A DNA stretch of 32,202 nucleotides from an uncultured Chitinophagaceae bacterium (GTDB taxonomy: Bacteria > Bacteroidota > Bacteroidia > Chitinophagales > Chitinophagaceae): contig CAIVCF010000214.1 of the NCBI GenBank assembly GCA_903904335.1, positions 1 through 32,202 of the forward strand, read 5' to 3'. Position numbers and translations under genes: made by a program. The notes under the pieces are model-generated. The model was not told the origin of the DNA. It made no database searches and saw only the letters and a list, made by a program, of their open reading frames with translations. Below, in pieces: positions 4,683-32,202 of the stretch; the first letter of the stretch is position 1; each line of letters opens with the position of its first letter.

Positions 4683-5132
4683 TTATTGCAATTTGATCTC
4701 AAATGATTTTTTTACAGGCGGCAAACATTCTTCATCATTACAAACCATGTATTCTACCGTTCCGGAAACAGTGGTAGTGGCTTTTGCTTTCAGTTTTGCA
4801 GTTTGAACAAACTGAACGCTGTTTGAAAAATACAACACTTCTGATTTGAAATTAGGATCATTCACTTTTTCTAATTTACCAATCTCTGCAACCTTTCCAT
4901 CAAGTGCAACCAAAGGATTTGTTTTGAAACTGAACTTAGTGGGTATCGGTCCTTTGCCTGTGAATTGCGAATAAATATGCCAAGGTTTTTCAACCGTTGC
5001 AGTGGCAATCAATTCATACACACCATCTGATTTTTTTTTGCTTTCAAATTTCCAATTGACTGGATTTTTTGACTGTGCATTTATAACAAAAGCAAATAAA
5101 ACCGCAATAACAACAAAAGATATTTTTTTCAT
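4683..5132 (-). CDS. Stand-alone periplasmic DsbD alpha-domain protein
   Basis: A 149-residue secreted protein: signal peptide 1-19 (cleavage near INAQS), then a single DsbD-alpha (immunoglobulin-like) domain. It ends in VEYMVCNDEECLPP, with cysteines 131 and 136, the redox pair of this domain family. It resembles the N-terminal domain of the adjacent DsbD: SKKKSDGVYEL here against SKKISDGLYEL there, followed in both by a WH(I/L)Y motif. This suggests a duplication. I infer that it receives electrons from the DsbD gamma domain and passes them to periplasmic clients, since DsbD's own alpha domain has lost these cysteines. It starts 9 bp after the purQ stop and lies 126 bp before dsbD, so cotranscription is likely. 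In this family such proteins are often annotated only as DsbD domain-containing. Confidence 0.9.
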   Translation of the reverse strand: MKKISFVVIAVLFAFVINAQSKNPVNWKFESKKKSDGVYELIATATVEKPWHIYSQFTGKGPIPTKFSFKTNPLVALDGKVAEIGKLEKVNDPNFKSEVLYFSNSVQFVQTAKLKAKATTTVSGTVEYMVCNDEECLPPVKKSFEIKLQ

Positions 5133-17381: not shown

Positions 17382-19124
17382 TTATAAATTTTGTTTCTTC
17401 AGTTCATCAACAATATGTTCACTGGCACGCATCGCCAACGCCAAAATTGTCCATGTGATATTTTTATCAGCCTGAGAAACAAACTGCCCACCATCCACAC
17501 AAAATAAATTTTTACAATCGTGCGATTGGCTCCATTTATTCAATACAGATTTCTTAGGATCATTTCCCATACGCACTGTTCCAGCTTCATGAATGATATT
17601 ACCGGGATTATGAAGACCATAATTATTATGCGGACCATCATCCCCACCCCAAGTAACCACAGCACCCATACTGTGTAAAATTTCTTTGAATGTTTCTTTC
17701 ATGTGCTTTGCCTGATTTACTTCATAACTGCTCCATGAAGTATGAAAACGTAAAACAGGAATGCCGTATTTATCAACCACATTCGGATCAATTTCGCAAT
17801 AACTGTCTTCTCTTGCAATACCTTCACCTCTTCCCGCCATACCCACATGTGCGCCGAAGAAATAACGGTAATCTTCTTTCAATGAAGCACCATAACCACC
17901 TGCTTCTTTTTGTTTGCCTTTTATTTTATAAGCACCGTTTAAATTTTCAATGTCCCATTGAAATCCATACAAAGGCATTCCAAATCCACCGCCGTATTCA
18001 ATATGATAACCACGTGGAAAATCTAATTTTTTATTATCCAACCACCACGGCGTATACACATGCATGCCGCCAACACCATCTTCATTGTACCTTTTTCTGT
18101 CGAATAATTCCGGAATGATGCCTCCCATATCTGCACCGGTTGAATCATGTAAATATTTTCCAACCACACCGCTTGAGTTTGCAATACCATTCGGATAACG
18201 GGGCGATTTAGAATTCAACATCAATCTTGCGCTTTCACATGCACTTGCAGCAAGGATCACTGTTTTACCAAACACCTGATATTCCTGCAAATCATCTTTA
18301 CTTACATAAGAAATACCTGTTGCCAATCCTTCTTTATTCGTCAGCACTTCACGTGCCATTGCATTCGTAACCAGATCAACATTACCTGTTGCCAATGCAG
18401 GCTTTACCAAAACGGATGATGAAGAAAAATCACCATAGAGTTTACAGCTTCTGCCGCATTGCCCGCAAAAAACACAATTTCTGTCTTTATTGTTGGGCAA
18501 TTGTTTGGTAAGAATAGATAATCGGGAAGGAATAACAGGAATACCAATATTCGTTGCAGCTCTTTTCACAAATAATTCATGCAATCGTGGTTTTGGTGGA
18601 GGTAGAAAAAATCCATCCGGATCATTCGGCAATCCTTCATTTGTTCCGAATATGCCAATCAATTGATCGATCTTATCATAATAAGGTTTTACATCTTCAT
18701 AACCAATGGGCCAATCATCACCTAAACCATCAATACTTTTTCTTTTAAAATCTTTCGGACCGAATCGCAAAGAAATCCTTCCCCAATGATTCGTTCTTCC
18801 ACCCAGCATCCTTGCACGCCACCACTCCCATTTATCACCTTCAGCATGTGTGTAAGGTTCACCATCTACCTGCCATCCCCAATAGGATCCATCAAAATCT
18901 CCGAATGGCCGAAACTTAGTGCTGGCACCACGTCTGGGCGATTCCCAAGGATTTTTAAATTGTGCAGAATTAACAGCGGGGTCAAAATTCGGACCTGCTT
19001 CTACTAAACATACTTTCAATCCGGCATTGGCTAAAACATAAGCTGCCATTCCACCGCCGGCACCCGAACCAACAATAACAGCATCGTATTGTTTGATTTG
19101 TTTTTTGATCTGAAAATCTCCCAT
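17382..19124 (-). CDS. GMC-family FAD-dependent oxidoreductase with Cys-rich cluster
   Basis: A 580-residue flavoprotein that would oxidise an alcohol group of a sugar or sugar alcohol. It has the FAD-binding GSGAGGG (19-25), VEAG (41-44), GGRTNHWGR (109-116) and the C-terminal active-site region, with His512 in IIHEAGTVRMG and Asn555 in ADKNITWT. A CxxCxxCxxxC run (Cys217, 220, 223, 227 in NCVFCGQCGRSC) resembles the iron-sulfur region of bacterial FAD glucose dehydrogenases, so an Fe-S cluster is plausible. The protein has no signal peptide, although its partner, encoded next, has a Tat-type one. I infer co-export of the folded complex to the periplasm. The substrate cannot be named from sequence. 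No clear TAnnTTTG box was found upstream in 19125-19323. Confidence 0.92.
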   Translation of the reverse strand: MGDFQIKKQIKQYDAVIVGSGAGGGMAAYVLANAGLKVCLVEAGPNFDPAVNSAQFKNPWESPRRGASTKFRPFGDFDGSYWGWQVDGEPYTHAEGDKWEWWRARMLGGRTNHWGRISLRFGPKDFKRKSIDGLGDDWPIGYEDVKPYYDKIDQLIGIFGTNEGLPNDPDGFFLPPPKPRLHELFVKRAATNIGIPVIPSRLSILTKQLPNNKDRNCVFCGQCGRSCKLYGDFSSSSVLVKPALATGNVDLVTNAMAREVLTNKEGLATGISYVSKDDLQEYQVFGKTVILAASACESARLMLNSKSPRYPNGIANSSGVVGKYLHDSTGADMGGIIPELFDRKRYNEDGVGGMHVYTPWWLDNKKLDFPRGYHIEYGGGFGMPLYGFQWDIENLNGAYKIKGKQKEAGGYGASLKEDYRYFFGAHVGMAGRGEGIAREDSYCEIDPNVVDKYGIPVLRFHTSWSSYEVNQAKHMKETFKEILHSMGAVVTWGGDDGPHNNYGLHNPGNIIHEAGTVRMGNDPKKSVLNKWSQSHDCKNLFCVDGGQFVSQADKNITWTILALAMRASEHIVDELKKQNL

Positions 19125-28431: not shown

Positions 28432-29045
28432 AAAAATGTTTTACCAAATGAAGATACTTAATTTAAAATAGTATAAGATCTTTTAATTATAAACATAATT
28501 CAGGGACGACTCCCTTCAATCAGTTTGGAAAAGCAAAACATCGAAAAAACAAATATTGAAATTAATATTATTATTCTATGACATATATCATGTTACAGCA
28601 TGATTTTTATCATAGATATTTTAAGAACAGGTGTAAGATATTTGTTTAGCATAAACAATGTTAGAACAATGACATATTTGCAACCCATATCAATAGTCAA
28701 AACAGTTGGGTTCACAATTTCGTCAATTTCATTTTCTGACTACATCTCTTTCTTACTTAATCCAAAACTGCTAATGTTGGCAAGACCGGAGTTTTCATCA
28801 GGTTGGGCAATAATCACAGCTTTATTTTTCCAAGATAACCATAAAAGAATTCGATTGTGCCGTGCCGGAGAGTTGAATATTTAAAAATGTCTTTGCTATA
28901 TTTTTTATAAAATAATTATTTGGATTTATAACAAAATGATTTTTCAATTATCCGATTGATAATAAAACATTTTATACTCATGCACTAAATACTTTGGATT
29001 TATTACCAAGAACAAATACCATTTCTTCTAAATAAAAAAAGCGAT
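28432..29045. other. 614-bp AT-rich intergenic region
   Basis: It lies between the divergent SPFH and cytochrome genes. I see two tandem CRP-like palindromes at 28577-28614 and no convincing gene. A 94-codon plus-strand ORF (28600-28884) starts inside the second palindrome and resembles nothing; on the minus strand two stretches of protein-like text are split by a stop. No exact TAnnTTTG box was found for the cytochrome gene. It may hold a decayed gene or a long regulatory region. Confidence 0.6.
28577..28614. promoter_or_regulatory. Two tandem CRP/FNR-type palindromes
   Basis: TATGA-N6-TCATG (28577-28592) and CATGA-N6-TCATA (28599-28614) have the half-site length and 6-bp spacing of CRP/FNR-family sites. 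Their centres are 22 bp apart, about two helical turns. The pair also makes a larger nested palindrome (CTATGA...TCATAG). It could serve the SPFH gene (minus) or the cytochrome cluster (plus). Confidence 0.5.
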
Positions 29046-29474
29046 ATGAAAGAAAAAACCAAGAATGCCCGAATGTTTTTTTTAATTCTTTTAATGACTG
29101 TTTTATTTACTTTACCCGGAGTAAAAGGTAATAGCCAACCTGTTAAGCCTTGGATTGCTCCTGCATCAGCGCTGCAGGAAAAAAACCCATTTGAAGCTGA
29201 TAAGTCTTCAGCCGCGAAAGAAGGTAAAAAGTTATATGTAACTTATTGTACTCCTTGCCATGGAAATGGCGGAAAGGGTGATGGTATCGCAGCAGCATCG
29301 CTTAATCCAAAACCAGCCAATCACACTTCTGATGCGGTACAAAATGAACCTGATGCTTCATTGTATTGGAAAATGAGTACAGGTCGCGGGCCAATGGTTT
29401 CCTATAAACAAGTGTTGACTGATAACCAGAGATGGCAATTGGTCTGCTATATAAAAACGCTTGGAAAGAAGTGA
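29046..29474 (+). CDS. Monoheme class I-type cytochrome c
   Basis: A 142-residue exported cytochrome. It has a signal peptide or N-terminal anchor (about 10-31), a WIAPASALQEKNPF lead-in seen in many Bacteroidota cytochromes, one heme motif CTPCH in TYCTPCHGNGGKGDG, and a likely axial methionine in GRGPMVSYKQ. It ends RWQLVCYIKTL, the usual last helix. It should carry single electrons in the periplasm or at a membrane. It is followed after 59 bp by a porin, then a small cytochrome lipoprotein and a second cytochrome of the same type, which suggests a joint electron-transfer job. The neighbouring ATG at 29046 follows an A-rich tract; no ribosome-site motif is needed in this phylum. Confidence 0.93.
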   Translation: MKEKTKNARMFFLILLMTVLFTLPGVKGNSQPVKPWIAPASALQEKNPFEADKSSAAKEGKKLYVTYCTPCHGNGGKGDGIAAASLNPKPANHTSDAVQNEPDASLYWKMSTGRGPMVSYKQVLTDNQRWQLVCYIKTLGKK

Positions 29475-29533
29475 TAATAAAATAAAAGTTGCAACCGCAT
29501 TTCTACTATTTTCTTATTCATAATCATACTACC

Positions 29534-30754
29534 GTGAAACAAAAATTATTTATAAATAAATGTGCGTTAATCACCACTCTTCTAATTATTGTTTCTGTTA
29601 ACTTATTTGCTCAAGTTACCGGCACTGTAGATTCTTCGATATATGACAGGTTGAATTATCTGGAAGAGCAAACCAATTATCATAAATCGGGCGACGATCA
29701 TTTTATGGTGGTTGGTCTAACAACTTTTGGATATGCAGCCTCTAAATCTATTAACAATCTGAATGGTGTAATTACATCTTCAAAATCCAACAGTTTTCCT
29801 GATGGGGATCATTATGAATTCAGTCCAATGCTTTTATGGAGGCACGGCAAAAAATTTTTAATGGAGTTCGAGCCATCATTCAATAATAATTCATTGAGTG
29901 TAAACTGGGCTGATATTTCCTATTTTGCTTTGCCTAATTTAATTATCAGAGCCGGTTATTTTGTTTTGCCGTTTGGCACTTACAATAAAAAGCAGGCGGC
30001 AGGATGGATCAATAAATTGGCTACTGATCCAATGGGAATATCAGCTATTCCCTCTACTGATTATGGAATTGAGATCGAAGGAGGATTGCCGCTCGGAAGC
30101 ATGAAGATGAATTATGATTTTTCTTTGACGAATGGTTTGCAATTGAACGGTGATGGAACTTTAACTGGGGGTAATATTACCGATAACAATAATAATAAAA
30201 CATTTACCGGCAGATTGGGATTACTGCCTTTTTCCAATTCATGCCTTGAATTAGGTGTTTCCGGCATGTTCGGTAGGGTTGGAGATATCGGAACCCCGTA
30301 TGAGAATGTTAAGTCCAATTTTTATGCGTTTGATCTAAATTTTGTAAAAACATTTGTGCCTATTTTAGTAAATATCAAATCGCAGTATAATATCATTAAT
30401 GTTGGTGATGCAGATTATATCAGTCCCGTAAATTCCGCACAGACCTATACTTTTAAAAACCGCACTACTAACGGATTTGTACAATGTGCTATAAGACCTA
30501 CCGGGATCTTGGCTTTAAAAGATCTTGAATTAGCCGGCAGATATACTACTTACTCAACTCCGGCTAATTCAACTTGGGGAAGTGACCAACATTCATTCTC
30601 TATTGGTTTGAATTACTGGTTAAGTTGGAGAGCTGTAGCCAGAATTACTTACGAAACATATACCGGCAACAGCACTGCAAGTCAAGCATTAAATGCATTT
30701 ACAGGCACTACAAATACAAATACGTTGTACCTGCAATTTTCCATTCAACTTTAA
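29534..30754 (+). CDS. Outer-membrane beta-barrel porin (phosphate-selective porin O/P-like)
   Basis: From GTG 29534 the protein has 406 residues: a signal peptide (about 1-26, ending VNLFAQ), a short coiled-coil-like segment (YDRLNYLEEQ), then alternating amphipathic strands with many Gly/Asn/Tyr turns to an end LYLQFSIQL typical of outer-membrane barrels. The pattern FLMEFEPSF, IIRAGYFVLPFGTYN and GIEIEGGLP recalls the OprO/P superfamily. An in-frame TTG at 29489 would add 15 codons ahead of the signal; I prefer the GTG because it puts the basic KQKLFINK directly at the start. It lies between cytochrome genes, with the next starting 11 bp after its stop. No heme motif is present in it. Confidence 0.8.
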   Translation: MKQKLFINKCALITTLLIIVSVNLFAQVTGTVDSSIYDRLNYLEEQTNYHKSGDDHFMVVGLTTFGYAASKSINNLNGVITSSKSNSFPDGDHYEFSPMLLWRHGKKFLMEFEPSFNNNSLSVNWADISYFALPNLIIRAGYFVLPFGTYNKKQAAGWINKLATDPMGISAIPSTDYGIEIEGGLPLGSMKMNYDFSLTNGLQLNGDGTLTGGNITDNNNNKTFTGRLGLLPFSNSCLELGVSGMFGRVGDIGTPYENVKSNFYAFDLNFVKTFVPILVNIKSQYNIINVGDADYISPVNSAQTYTFKNRTTNGFVQCAIRPTGILALKDLELAGRYTTYSTPANSTWGSDQHSFSIGLNYWLSWRAVARITYETYTGNSTASQALNAFTGTTNTNTLYLQFSIQL

Positions 30755-30765
30755 ATTTTACTATT

Positions 30766-31050
30766 ATGGAAAAACCTAAAACACTACTTAGCTTATCAAT
30801 CGGATTGGTTATTTCATTTGGATTGATGACCATGATATCCATGAACAGTTGTGCTCCTACTAAAGCAATTGCAGATAAAACGGGTGTGCAGCTATGGAGC
30901 GAAAACTGTCAAAGATGTCATAACACGCCATCACCAACAACCTTTTCGCCTGAAATATGGGAAACTGTTGGTATGCATATGCAAACAAGGGCATTGCTTA
31001 CTGAAAAAGAAAGAGATAAAATCATTGAGTTCTTAAAATCAAGCAGATAA
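30766..31050 (+). CDS. Small monoheme cytochrome c lipoprotein
   Basis: A 94-residue protein with one N-terminal membrane segment followed by a likely lipobox (SMNSC, Cys near 29) and a single heme motif CQRCH (NCQRCHNTPSPTTFSPEIW). The following VGMHMQTRALLTEKERDKIIEFLKSS gives possible axial ligands (His and Met residues) and a terminal helix. Short cytochromes of this design occur in many bacteria next to redox enzymes. ATG 30766 is used; an open frame reaches back to 30625 but there overlaps the porin gene in another frame. The 11-bp gap to the porin makes cotranscription almost certain. Confidence 0.85.
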   Translation: MEKPKTLLSLSIGLVISFGLMTMISMNSCAPTKAIADKTGVQLWSENCQRCHNTPSPTTFSPEIWETVGMHMQTRALLTEKERDKIIEFLKSSR

Positions 31051-31089
31051 AAGAGAAGTAGTGTAAAATTCTGCAAGTGTTTTTCGATC

Positions 31090-31134
31090 GCTCATTATTA
31101 AAATGAGCAAGTCAATTAAAGGATTTTAGCTTTG
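31090..31134 (+). promoter_or_regulatory. Candidate promoter with inverted repeat for the second cytochrome
   Basis: TAGCTTTG (31127-31134) is an exact TAnnTTTG match, 54 bp before the ATG at 31188. The inverted repeat GCTCATT/AATGAGC (31090-31108, 5-bp centre) covers the place where a -33 element would lie. It may be an operator, or alternatively a weak terminator for the upstream cytochrome transcript. Confidence 0.4.
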
Positions 31135-31187
31135 TTTTTATAAACCAGTAAAATTTATAATTCTATAAATTCATTAAAATAATTTGT

Positions 31188-31613
31188 ATGAAAAATGAAA
31201 ACGGCTTTTACGCTTCTATACTTGTAATAGTAGTTTTGATATTTTCTATCCCAATAAGCGTCTTCTCTCAAACAGAAGAAAGAGTGATTCCCGAAAATGC
31301 AAAATCAATGATCAATCCTTTAAAAGACAGTATGCAATTTTTGCCGGAAGCAAAAAAAATTTATAAAAGTCACTGTACTCCTTGTCATGGTACAAAAGGT
31401 AAAGGAGATGGCCCTTCAGCTTATACTTGTGATCCTAAGCCGGCAGACCATAGCTCGGACTTTGTTCAGAATAGAACAGACGGAGAATTATTTTGGCTGA
31501 TTTCTAATGGCCATACACAAACACCTATGGTTTCGTTTAAGAAAACTGTTAATGCAACTGAAAGATGGAAATTGATATTATATATTCGAAGTTTAGCCGC
31601 TAAAAAAACATAA
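31188..31613 (+). CDS. Monoheme class I-type cytochrome c, second copy
   Basis: A 141-residue relative of the 29046 cytochrome: signal peptide (about 8-27), a P-rich lead with NP, heme motif CTPCH in SHCTPCHGTKGKGDG, possible axial Met in TQTPMVSFKK and end RWKLILYIRSL. It differs by an extra Cys in AYTCDPKPAD. It is separated by 137 bp from the small cytochrome and has its own TAnnTTTG box, so it may be expressed independently. It ends before a very long terminator hairpin. Confidence 0.93.
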   Translation: MKNENGFYASILVIVVLIFSIPISVFSQTEERVIPENAKSMINPLKDSMQFLPEAKKIYKSHCTPCHGTKGKGDGPSAYTCDPKPADHSSDFVQNRTDGELFWLISNGHTQTPMVSFKKTVNATERWKLILYIRSLAAKKT

Positions 31614-31686: not shown

Positions 31687-31737
31687 TTAAGCATAAAAAA
31701 TAGCCATCAATTGTTGATGGCTATTTTTTATGCTTAA
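31687..31737. terminator. Perfect 24-bp terminator hairpin
   Basis: 31687-31710 is the exact reverse complement of 31714-31737, with a 3-nt loop (TTG). The arms contain AAAAAA and TTTTTT runs, giving termination on both strands. The right arm overlaps the pepT stop codon (31734-31736). Confidence 0.92.
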
Positions 31738-32077
31738 CTTTTTTCTTCCCAAACCTGAACCAAATTCACCAATATTTCAACAGCTTTCTGCATATCCTTC
31801 ACTCCGATCCATTCATGTTTGCTGTGTATGGCCTGCATACCTGTAAATAAATTCGGACAGGGCAAACCCATAAAACTTAAACGACTGCCATCGGTGCCGC
31901 CGCGAATGGGTTCATTCACAACATGCAATCCTGCACGTTTGTATGCTTCACTTGCATAAGCCACCACTTGGGGGTGTTTGTCCAACACTTCTTTCATGTT
32001 TCGATATTGCTCCTGCACTTCAAACTCATAATGTGCTGTTGGATATTTTTTAAGAACAGTTGCAGTAATATTTTTTT
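31734..32077 (-). pseudogene. pepT: 3' fragment of peptidase T gene, interrupted at its 5' side
   Basis: The last 113 or so codons of a peptidase T (tripeptide aminopeptidase, M20 family). Recognisable segments are KKYPTAHYEFEVQEQYRNM, the family metal-site and substrate segment IRGGTDGSRLSFMGLPCPNL, and AIHSKHEWIGVKDMQ with the conserved His-Glu region. PepT has about 410 residues, and the frame going upstream hits a TAA at 32076-32078. Beyond it lies AT-rich sequence that does not read as PepT. The ATG/GTG starts seen in the fragment are therefore not real starts. The fragment adjoins what looks like an insertion sequence end. The rest of pepT is expected past that element, outside the window, unless the gene was also deleted. 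Confidence 0.85.
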
Positions 32078-32121
32078 AGGATTAGGTAGAATGTACGCAA
32101 AGAATAATAAAAGGTTTGGTT

Positions 32122-32166
32122 ATAACTAAATATATTAGTAATTTGAAGTCTAAATTATTTAGTTAT
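32122..32166 (+). repeat. Inverted repeat over the transposase start
   Basis: ATAACTAAAT (32122-32131) and ATTTAGTTAT (32157-32166) are perfect 10-bp arms; the right arm includes the first two bases of the ATG at 32165. Read-through RNA could fold here and hide the start, as known for other insertion sequences. Confidence 0.5.
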
Positions 32167-32202
32167 GTTTAAAGGAATCAATGCGATAGAGTTTTCAAAA
32201 CA
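32165..32202 (+). CDS. Transposase start (partial, 12 codons)
   Basis: ATG at 32165 opens MFKGINAIEFSK and runs off the window. The pattern suggests an IS1595-type transposase, in which a zinc-ribbon region normally follows. With only 12 residues this rests mostly on context: a broken pepT directly to the left and an inverted repeat around the start. Confidence 0.45.
   Translation, partial: MFKGINAIEFSK

Follow-up and report, generated by a model that had tools for sequence, protein, structure and literature searches.

A cytochrome–porin–cytochrome unit of Bacteroidota and Gammaproteobacteria as a candidate minimal outer-membrane electron conduit

Contig CAIVCF010000214.1 of an uncultured Chitinophagaceae bacterium (32,202 nucleotides, here called the window) was analysed at its full length; it belongs to a 3.1-Mb draft genome rated 100% complete. 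Towards its end, the gene of a class-I monoheme cytochrome c (cytA) is followed by the genes of an outer-membrane beta-barrel (porin) and of a small monoheme cytochrome lipoprotein (lipocyt). These three genes, with cytochromes of about 140 and about 92 amino acids (aa) on either side of the porin, form a conserved core which is present in two phyla, Bacteroidota and Gammaproteobacteria. On balance, we lean towards reading the unit as a minimal outer-membrane electron conduit made under low oxygen. A conduit or redox pore is the best explanation because the barrel is constantly accompanied by a membrane-tethered monoheme cytochrome, usually together with a periplasmic one, and because one natural fusion, a link to a quinone module and the absence of a recurring substrate-specific enzyme point the same way.

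The unit in the window

The features concerned are the following.

28578..28613, no strand assigned: two FNR/Crp-like dyads in tandem with a spacing of 22 bp (ATGAC-N4-ATCAT and ATGAT-N4-ATCAT); cytA begins about 430 nt further downstream
29046..29474, plus strand: cytA, class-I monoheme cytochrome c of 142 aa, with a signal peptide, no lipobox and one CXXCH
29534..30754, plus strand: porin, outer-membrane beta-barrel of 406 aa, with a GTG start and no CXXCH
30766..31050, plus strand: lipocyt, small monoheme cytochrome lipoprotein of 94 aa (66 aa from the lipobox Cys on), with one CXXCH
31188..31613, plus strand: cytB, second cytochrome c of the cytA type, 141 aa, with one CXXCH; accessory, outside the conserved core

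The initial annotation described three monoheme cytochromes around a barrel of 406 residues, and a gap of 11 bp between the porin stop and the lipocyt start. Open reading frame (ORF) coordinates and CXXCH counts confirm this arrangement. The ORF listing also holds an alternative TTG start for the porin at 29489; the 406-aa product corresponds to the GTG start at 29534. Both cytA and cytB score above the Pfam cut-offs for PF13442 and PF00034 (cytA reaches E 1.5e-11 with PF13442), and lipocyt falls just below them (22.0 against 27 for PF13442, 21.2 against 21.3 for PF00034). With the Cytochrome 579 model NF033864, cytB (59.9 bits) and cytA (39.7 bits) both stay below the cut-off of 280. A scan of the window porin against Pfam and NCBIfam gave no match at E ≤ 1e-1, and no structured RNA was matched around the unit at the Rfam gathering thresholds.

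Conservation of the gene order

Relatives of the porin were gathered irrespective of cytochromes (fetched loci are designated L### and genomes G###). Twenty-two loci lie in named genomes, and the closest named relatives belong to uncultured Bacteroidota, including Chitinophagaceae and a Hydrotalea. Homologues of the porin occur in 15 of 98 genomes of the family (E ≤ 1e-3) and in 20 of 395 genomes of the phylum (E ≤ 1e-6).

Profiles of the porin, lipocyt and cytA were run over all ORFs of the fetched loci, and distinct loci were recounted by script at a porin E ≤ 1e-20. Duplicates (L054, L055, L057), contigs ending at the porin (L028-L030 behind it, L023 and L026 in front of it) and loci under 4.5 kb, mostly repeats of the same places, were omitted from these counts. 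Lipocyt is found directly downstream of the porin and on the same strand in 42 of the 43 loci with readable DNA behind the porin. The lone miss, L027, is a damaged copy in which the tail of lipocyt is still present, and a phosphate-porin orthologue standing without cytochromes, named at the outset as an outcome contrary to the proposal, was thus not found among these loci. Directly upstream of the porin, a cytA-type gene is present in 39 of the 44 loci with readable DNA in front. The order is not due to chance because it recurs in dozens of loci. The cluster was first presented as one of four genes; the three-gene order is what recurs, and an orthologue of the fourth gene, cytB, was seen at the same position in the same-genus locus L012 only.

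In the phylum sample, strong porin matches (E ≤ 1e-20) and strong lipocyt matches (E ≤ 1e-13) fall in the identical 12 of 395 genomes, at cut-offs chosen after the tables had been viewed and with weak matches excluded (20 genomes with lipocyt-like matches, E 3.0e-12 to 8.1e-7, and eight with porin-like matches, E 2.8e-12 to 2.8e-7). One genome, G310, holds weak matches to both, 63 kb apart.

Lipocyt has conserved CxRCHN, W and HM residues. A lipobox-type Cys precedes the heme Cys by 18-38 residues in all 39 Bacteroidota lipocyts tested. Surface-exposed lipoproteins of Bacteroidota carry an acidic export signal after the +1 Cys, as far as the consulted part of PMC5080379 describes it; such a signal (two or more acids at +2 to +6) occurs in none of the 39. 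Lipocyt is therefore predicted to be anchored on the periplasmic side, since the lipobox is present without the surface-export signal. The lipocyts of gammaproteobacteria, L132 and L133 have no Cys at the lipobox position, and those of L133, Alteromonas and Glaciecola are fused to a second heme domain.

Plasmid copies and natural fusions

When 72,556 plasmids were searched in translation with the window porin, the single match was a Legionella anisa gene annotated as 'c-type cytochrome'; two further searches, matching three and nine records, led to the plasmid pairs described below. The Legionella product (K8O89_RS18400, 758 aa) consists of three class-I cytochrome domains followed by this barrel: the cytA profile matches at E 7.9e-31 and the porin profile at E 9.6e-35 over model positions 84-406. 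In the gene after it, a lipocyt domain (E 2.3e-24) is fused to a cytA-type domain. Such a natural fusion of cytochromes to the barrel suggests that heme and barrel are in contact.

The porin–lipocyt pair is also carried by the plasmids pKD02 of Alteromonas macleodii (porin profile 5.2e-40, lipocyt profile 1.6e-19) and pGLAAG01 of Glaciecola (3.4e-37 and 1.1e-19). On both, the pair opens a row of genes that includes a seven-heme cytochrome and, at some distance, hydrogenase genes: a hydrogenase small subunit and a HyaD/HybD-type maturation gene on pKD02, and on pGLAAG01 a maturation gene with which the stretch read ends. By profile–profile comparison, the barrels from Gammaproteobacteria are related to the window family (probability 99.9, E 1.8e-35).

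Two side observations concern these plasmids. The Alteromonadaceae hydrogenase rows with the pair (L188:6323-16189 and L189:5379-14252) additionally hold Met-rich exported proteins and a 2Fe-2S protein beside the seven-heme cytochrome. In Alteromonas macleodii pAM1A3 (L190:6762-7468), only the last 57 residues of the porin remain, and the cytochrome gene lies in two pieces.

Fold and conserved residues of the barrel

An AlphaFold2 model of the barrel, built with 18 sequences, reached a predicted local distance difference test score (pLDDT) of 71.5 and a predicted template modelling score (pTM) of 0.70. Its closest structure in VIA-align is OprO (Z 26.6, 3.1 Å over 316 residues), followed by OprP (Z 26.4) and PorB (Z 24.8), with an identity of 10-11% to OprO and OprP. 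The model has about 17 longer strand segments, and the figure of 16 strands is taken from the OprO/OprP match and is not a clean count. Assignment to the OprO/P type, as initially made, therefore stands by fold and fails by sequence: Porin_O_P (PF07396) is reached at E ≤ 1e-3 by two of 30 family porins (best 1.4e-5), the window porin has no match to it at E ≤ 0.1, and none of the 30 matches any NCBIfam model at E ≤ 1e-3. A sequence search for solved structures yielded no relative of lipocyt and none of the porin (a single chance match, E 0.95).

OprO and OprP are phosphate and pyrophosphate channels. This fold favours the main rival explanation, under which the barrel would selectively admit a small substrate, selenite, tellurite, nitrite or another oxyanion for instance. 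The two cytochromes would then reduce the substrate or feed a periplasmic reductase encoded elsewhere, and no electron would cross the membrane. The Geobacter ExtI cluster, implicated in selenite and tellurite reduction in the part of PMC5877670 consulted, favours such a role as well. The charged residues of the barrel argue otherwise. Those kept in at least 93% of 44 barrels, gammaproteobacterial ones included, are E111, E113, E239, D267, E332, R227 and R336. They are mostly acidic, unlike the arginine ladder and lysine cluster which the same source, to the extent consulted, describes for OprP. E111 and E113 share one face because they are two apart in one strand and side chains alternate along a beta strand; this face presumably borders the barrel lumen. 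The natural cytochrome–barrel fusion, suggestive of heme–barrel contact, also counts against simple import with reduction, which we judge unlikely overall.

More distant barrels of the same superfamily were also noticed. At L134:5016-7902 and L136:5181-8024 (profile E 7e-15 and 4.5e-12) they stand behind a di-haem oxidoreductase (DHOR) gene, with a Rieske protein in addition at L134, and the DHOR-linked form is another type of cytochrome-linked barrel. A third distant porin read, L135, starts too near the contig end to show what precedes it.

Link to a DsrO/NrfD quinone module

A longer operon ends with the unit in L063 and L064; it starts with a Tat-exported DsrO-like iron–sulfur (FeS) protein and an NrfD/DsrP-like membrane protein. 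By family scans and BLAST, the order is DsrO-like FeS protein, NrfD, Ig-like membrane protein, cytochrome, porin and lipocyt; the same gene row is recognised from the ORFs of L031 and L032. The FeS partners score 190.7 and 190.1 bits against DsrO (cut-off 200) and the NrfD partners 98.4 and 143.8 bits against DsrP (cut-off 350).

The window genome carries the orthologous quartet on another contig, C34, with identities of 49-51% for the FeS protein, 44% for NrfD and 48-50% for the cytochrome, whereas the ActC paralogue of the same genome is only 29% identical. The quartet is accompanied by a DUF5777 barrel, a lipoprotein with CxxxCH and an EB_dh-family protein.

Using the NrfD of the quartet as marker (E < 1e-80), the module was found in 11 of 15 unit-bearing genomes of the family sample and in 19 of the 83 others (Fisher p 2.7e-4). 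NosZ, taken as a marker of similar lifestyle, is present in 11 of 15 against 40 of 83 (p 0.064). Within the NosZ-bearing genomes, the module accompanies the unit in 9 of 11 cases and occurs in 12 of 40 genomes without it (p 0.003). These p-values serve only as guides because the genomes are related and the module is sometimes physically joined to the unit, namely in at least two of the 11 genomes (G023 and G037; by coordinates also G079).

The C34 region (L052:880-10144, G000:C34), whose tandem FNR-like site is perfect, may encode a second outer-membrane redox set. It comprises two DUF5777-type barrels, a YceI protein, lipoproteins with CxxxCH or CGCH, an EB_dh-family protein, a cytA paralogue and the DsrO/NrfD proteins. 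A literature search found no paper on DUF5777.

A tandem FNR-like site

The dyad ATGAT-N4-ATCAT precedes the unit in many relatives and is often doubled at about 22 bp. Allowing one mismatch at most and a distance of 300 nt, it precedes 18 of 36 cytA-type genes, a count that takes in the cytB copies, and 29 of 296 other genes (p 3e-8, with sequences that are not independent); the window's own pair lies beyond 300 nt and was scored as a miss. Other palindromes are present upstream, most of them AT-rich.

Searched with up to two mismatches, the tandem pattern has three places in the 3.1-Mb window genome: it is perfect at the C34 module, has one mismatch at the unit of the window, and has two in the promoter region from which a [NiFe] hydrogenase operon and hyp genes diverge. 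The reversed tandem pattern, used as a control, occurs nowhere in this genome even at three mismatches. At three mismatches, the true pattern gains five further places and a shifted register at C34; the sole one of these places looked at lies between an FNR-like gene and a cbb3 oxidase operon. Single ATGAT-N4-ATCAT sites number 28 exact copies against one for the reversed form, and many of those inspected are inside genes. Only the tandem form was taken as evidence in the window genome because single sites are not specific. Module and unit, which lie in a common operon in relatives, are thus linked in the window genome by a shared site.

Judged by its letters, the site would be an FNR-like element through which a regulator may bind and respond to oxygen. 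The FNR-like regulator of the window genome scores 96.2 bits against Fnr PRK11161 (cut-off 228) and contains the Cys pattern C14-x2-C17-x8-C26. Control of this kind would also suit an anaerobic reductase, as the import-and-reduce explanation has it.

The distance from the site to the divergent slipin gene is almost the same in the window (147 nt) and in L012 (146 nt). Between the site pair and cytA, at 28615-29045, the window has about 380 extra bp relative to L012, and 28641-28684 weakly resembles the start of the relatives' cytA. That this stretch is a repeat was ruled out, as it is single-copy in the genome. In L018, tandem FNR-like sites at 4698 and 9500 (two and three mismatches) precede genes read as universal-stress-like beside the unit.

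The cytochromes might also merely serve a cbb3 oxidase or an N2O reductase, the porin being an unrelated gene kept alongside. The window genome does have a cbb3 oxidase with an FNR-like gene as well as a NosZ cluster, both with FNR-like sites, and in L022 and L066 the unit is near a cytochrome and a membrane protein which, by reading, resemble the nos cluster of the window genome. Against this stand the constancy of the porin, its fusion to cytochromes in Legionella and the lack of a clear enrichment of NosZ with the unit; we hold this explanation to be very improbable. The membrane protein, of about 410 aa and with an HSHFAFGGW motif, is found in the NosZ cluster of the window genome and near the unit in two relatives (L168:4703-5929, L022:8894-10138, L066:8439-9674); the two copies tested (L168, L022) match no Pfam or NCBIfam family.

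Neighbouring genes

Up to two genes per side, of at least 100 aa, were surveyed at 34 loci, and 115 of the 121 proteins were scanned against Pfam. The flanks vary between loci, and these 115 neighbours match 146 Pfam families. Histidine kinase domains (5), Cytochrom_C (4), NrfD (3), Band_7 (3) and regulators are the commonest. A conserved linkage to a periplasmic dehydrogenase or reductase, which the initial annotation had regarded as fatal to its proposal, does not emerge, since no catalytic redox family is among the 25 commonest of the 146 families. The same result tells against reduction of an imported substrate by a neighbouring reductase. Weighing against the absence of an enzyme link are the pair's position within a hydrogenase gene row on the Alteromonas plasmid and before a hydrogenase maturation gene on the Glaciecola plasmid, and the hydrogenase promoter with the same regulatory site in the window genome.

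Metals suggest another role. The unit might act at the outer membrane by oxidising or reducing a toxic metal, copper in particular, while the respiratory chain takes or gives the electrons. A CusA/CzcA efflux gene is present on the Legionella plasmid, a multicopper oxidase near L130, and cupredoxin genes next to L132 and L133; the Alteromonas region has a CopD-family gene and encodes Met-rich proteins. However, Copper-bind matches two of the 115 proteins encoded by the two nearest genes per side, and the 25 commonest families include none for copper efflux; moreover, the other tandem-site operons of the window genome are respiratory, and plasmids gather metal genes for other reasons. A function in metal tolerance appears improbable to us.

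Within the window, a GMC-type flavin oxidoreductase is encoded at 17382-19124, 10 kb from the unit. Next to cytB, 31734-32202 holds just a 94-aa C-terminal remnant of a peptidase T-like (M20) gene, where L012 has a 435-aa ORF; by reading, the contig end just past this remnant may be the start of an insertion element.

A possible mechanism

Under the conduit reading, lipocyt would be lipid-anchored at the periplasmic face of the outer membrane and would close the barrel at its periplasmic mouth. From outside, a small solute with redox activity (Fe2+/Fe3+, Cu+/Cu2+ or another small electron carrier) would enter the barrel and might swap electrons with the lipocyt heme at this mouth. cytA would then carry electrons across the periplasm to or from the quinone-linked DsrO/NrfD-type module and the respiratory chain. 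Production of the components would be expected when oxygen is scarce.

Several points weigh against this picture. The substrate must enter the pore because one heme alone cannot span the outer membrane. The confidence of the barrel model is middling (pLDDT 71.5). In 5 of 44 loci, the cytA-type gene is missing in front of the porin (L022, L027, L062, L132, L133): it is relocated behind lipocyt in L022 and absent in L062, a cupredoxin gene stands ahead of the porin in L132, and a cytochrome domain is fused to lipocyt in L133. The NrfD module is missing in 4 of 15 unit-bearing genomes. The dyad precedes just 18 of the 36 cytA-type genes within 300 nt, and about 430 nt separate the site pair of the window from cytA, compared with about 70-90 nt in L012. 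Copper-resistance genes near several copies leave room for metal tolerance. Finally, the correlated divergence of porin and lipocyt (Mantel r 0.88) would equally follow from shared descent alone.

Going further, and more tentatively, the unit could represent an undescribed family of trans-outer-membrane conduits, built from monoheme cytochromes and a 16-strand-type barrel, split or partly or fully fused, and distributed over Bacteroidota and Gammaproteobacteria; we would give this wider proposal somewhat less than an even chance. If it is true, heterotrophs in which the unit is joined to the DsrO/NrfD module and has a regulatory site or a gene row in common with a hydrogenase could pass hydrogen- or quinol-derived electrons out, or take electrons up, without oxygen. 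Conduits known so far at the outer membrane are either large multiheme complexes or, in Cyc2, a single chain. One made of three small genes would give searches for such organisms a new marker, in Bacteroidota that are rarely thought to exchange electrons with their surroundings. The natural split and fused forms would offer an experimental handle on a single heme working inside a porin, and the gene set, the tandem FNR-like site and the quinone-module link make the conduit question directly testable.

Comparison with known systems

Cyc2 is a close parallel in design: it too combines one small heme domain with one 16-stranded OprO/OprP-like barrel, and its cytochrome is thought to plug the periplasmic mouth of the barrel, according to the portion of PMC8406198 consulted. 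In Bacteroidota, by contrast, porin and cytochromes are separate genes, and none of 30 porins contains a CXXCH. The heme domain of Cyc2 is short and N-terminal, whereas that of the unit is a class-I-type cytochrome encoded behind the porin; the Legionella fusion differs by its three cytochrome domains. The same portion of PMC8406198 defines Cyc2 by an AXPXFAR[Q/K][T/Y] motif just upstream of CXXCH. This motif is absent from 28 lipocyts, 40 cytA-type rows and 30 porins, and kinship with Cyc2, with which the initial annotation drew a comparison, is not supported. Membership was rejected on two of the features tested, fusion and motif; the third, an OprO/OprP-like barrel, is shared. The idea of a split porin–cytochrome conduit gains support from the autonomy of the unit, the lack of a recurring enzyme, the quinone link and the Legionella fusion. 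Our best reading is that the unit would work like a split Cyc2 without being Cyc2; the transfer of electrons, its direction and its substrate are putative.

MtrAB, PioAB, MtoAB and Geobacter Pcc resemble the unit in placing a porin gene next to cytochrome genes, one cytochrome being periplasmic and one membrane-attached. In the excerpts consulted, Mtr and Mto cytochromes are decaheme and Mtr, Pio and Mto barrels have 26 strands (PMC8406198, PMC10654088), and Pcc cytochromes hold 8 and 12 hemes (PMC4245776). Each window cytochrome, in contrast, has one CXXCH, and the barrel is of the 16-strand type. The Geobacter ExtI cluster (extHIJKLMNOPQS) is similar in composition: its porin is annotated as OprO/P, one of its cytochromes is a lipoprotein, and an FeS protein is encoded together with a cytochrome b of the membrane (PMC5877670, in part). 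Its cytochromes have 4-12 hemes, and one may hold selenocysteine, against one heme each in the unit; its quinone part is of the Rieske/cytochrome b kind, against DsrO/NrfD here.

For the FeS and NrfD partners, DsrO/DsrP, QrcC/QrcD and NrfC/NrfD are the best matches, yet all remain below the curated cut-offs. The set described here differs from them by adding an Ig-like membrane protein, a monoheme cytochrome and an outer-membrane barrel.

Putative novel, non-homologous porin–cytochrome clusters have been mentioned in Bacteroidetes, the defining cytochrome usually being multiheme (PMC6344600, in part). They may include this unit. Among the literature matches listed, none describes the monoheme form, split or fused, or the way it is regulated. 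Porin–cytochrome conduits are a known kind of system, of which the monoheme split-or-fused form is probably a so far undescribed variant.

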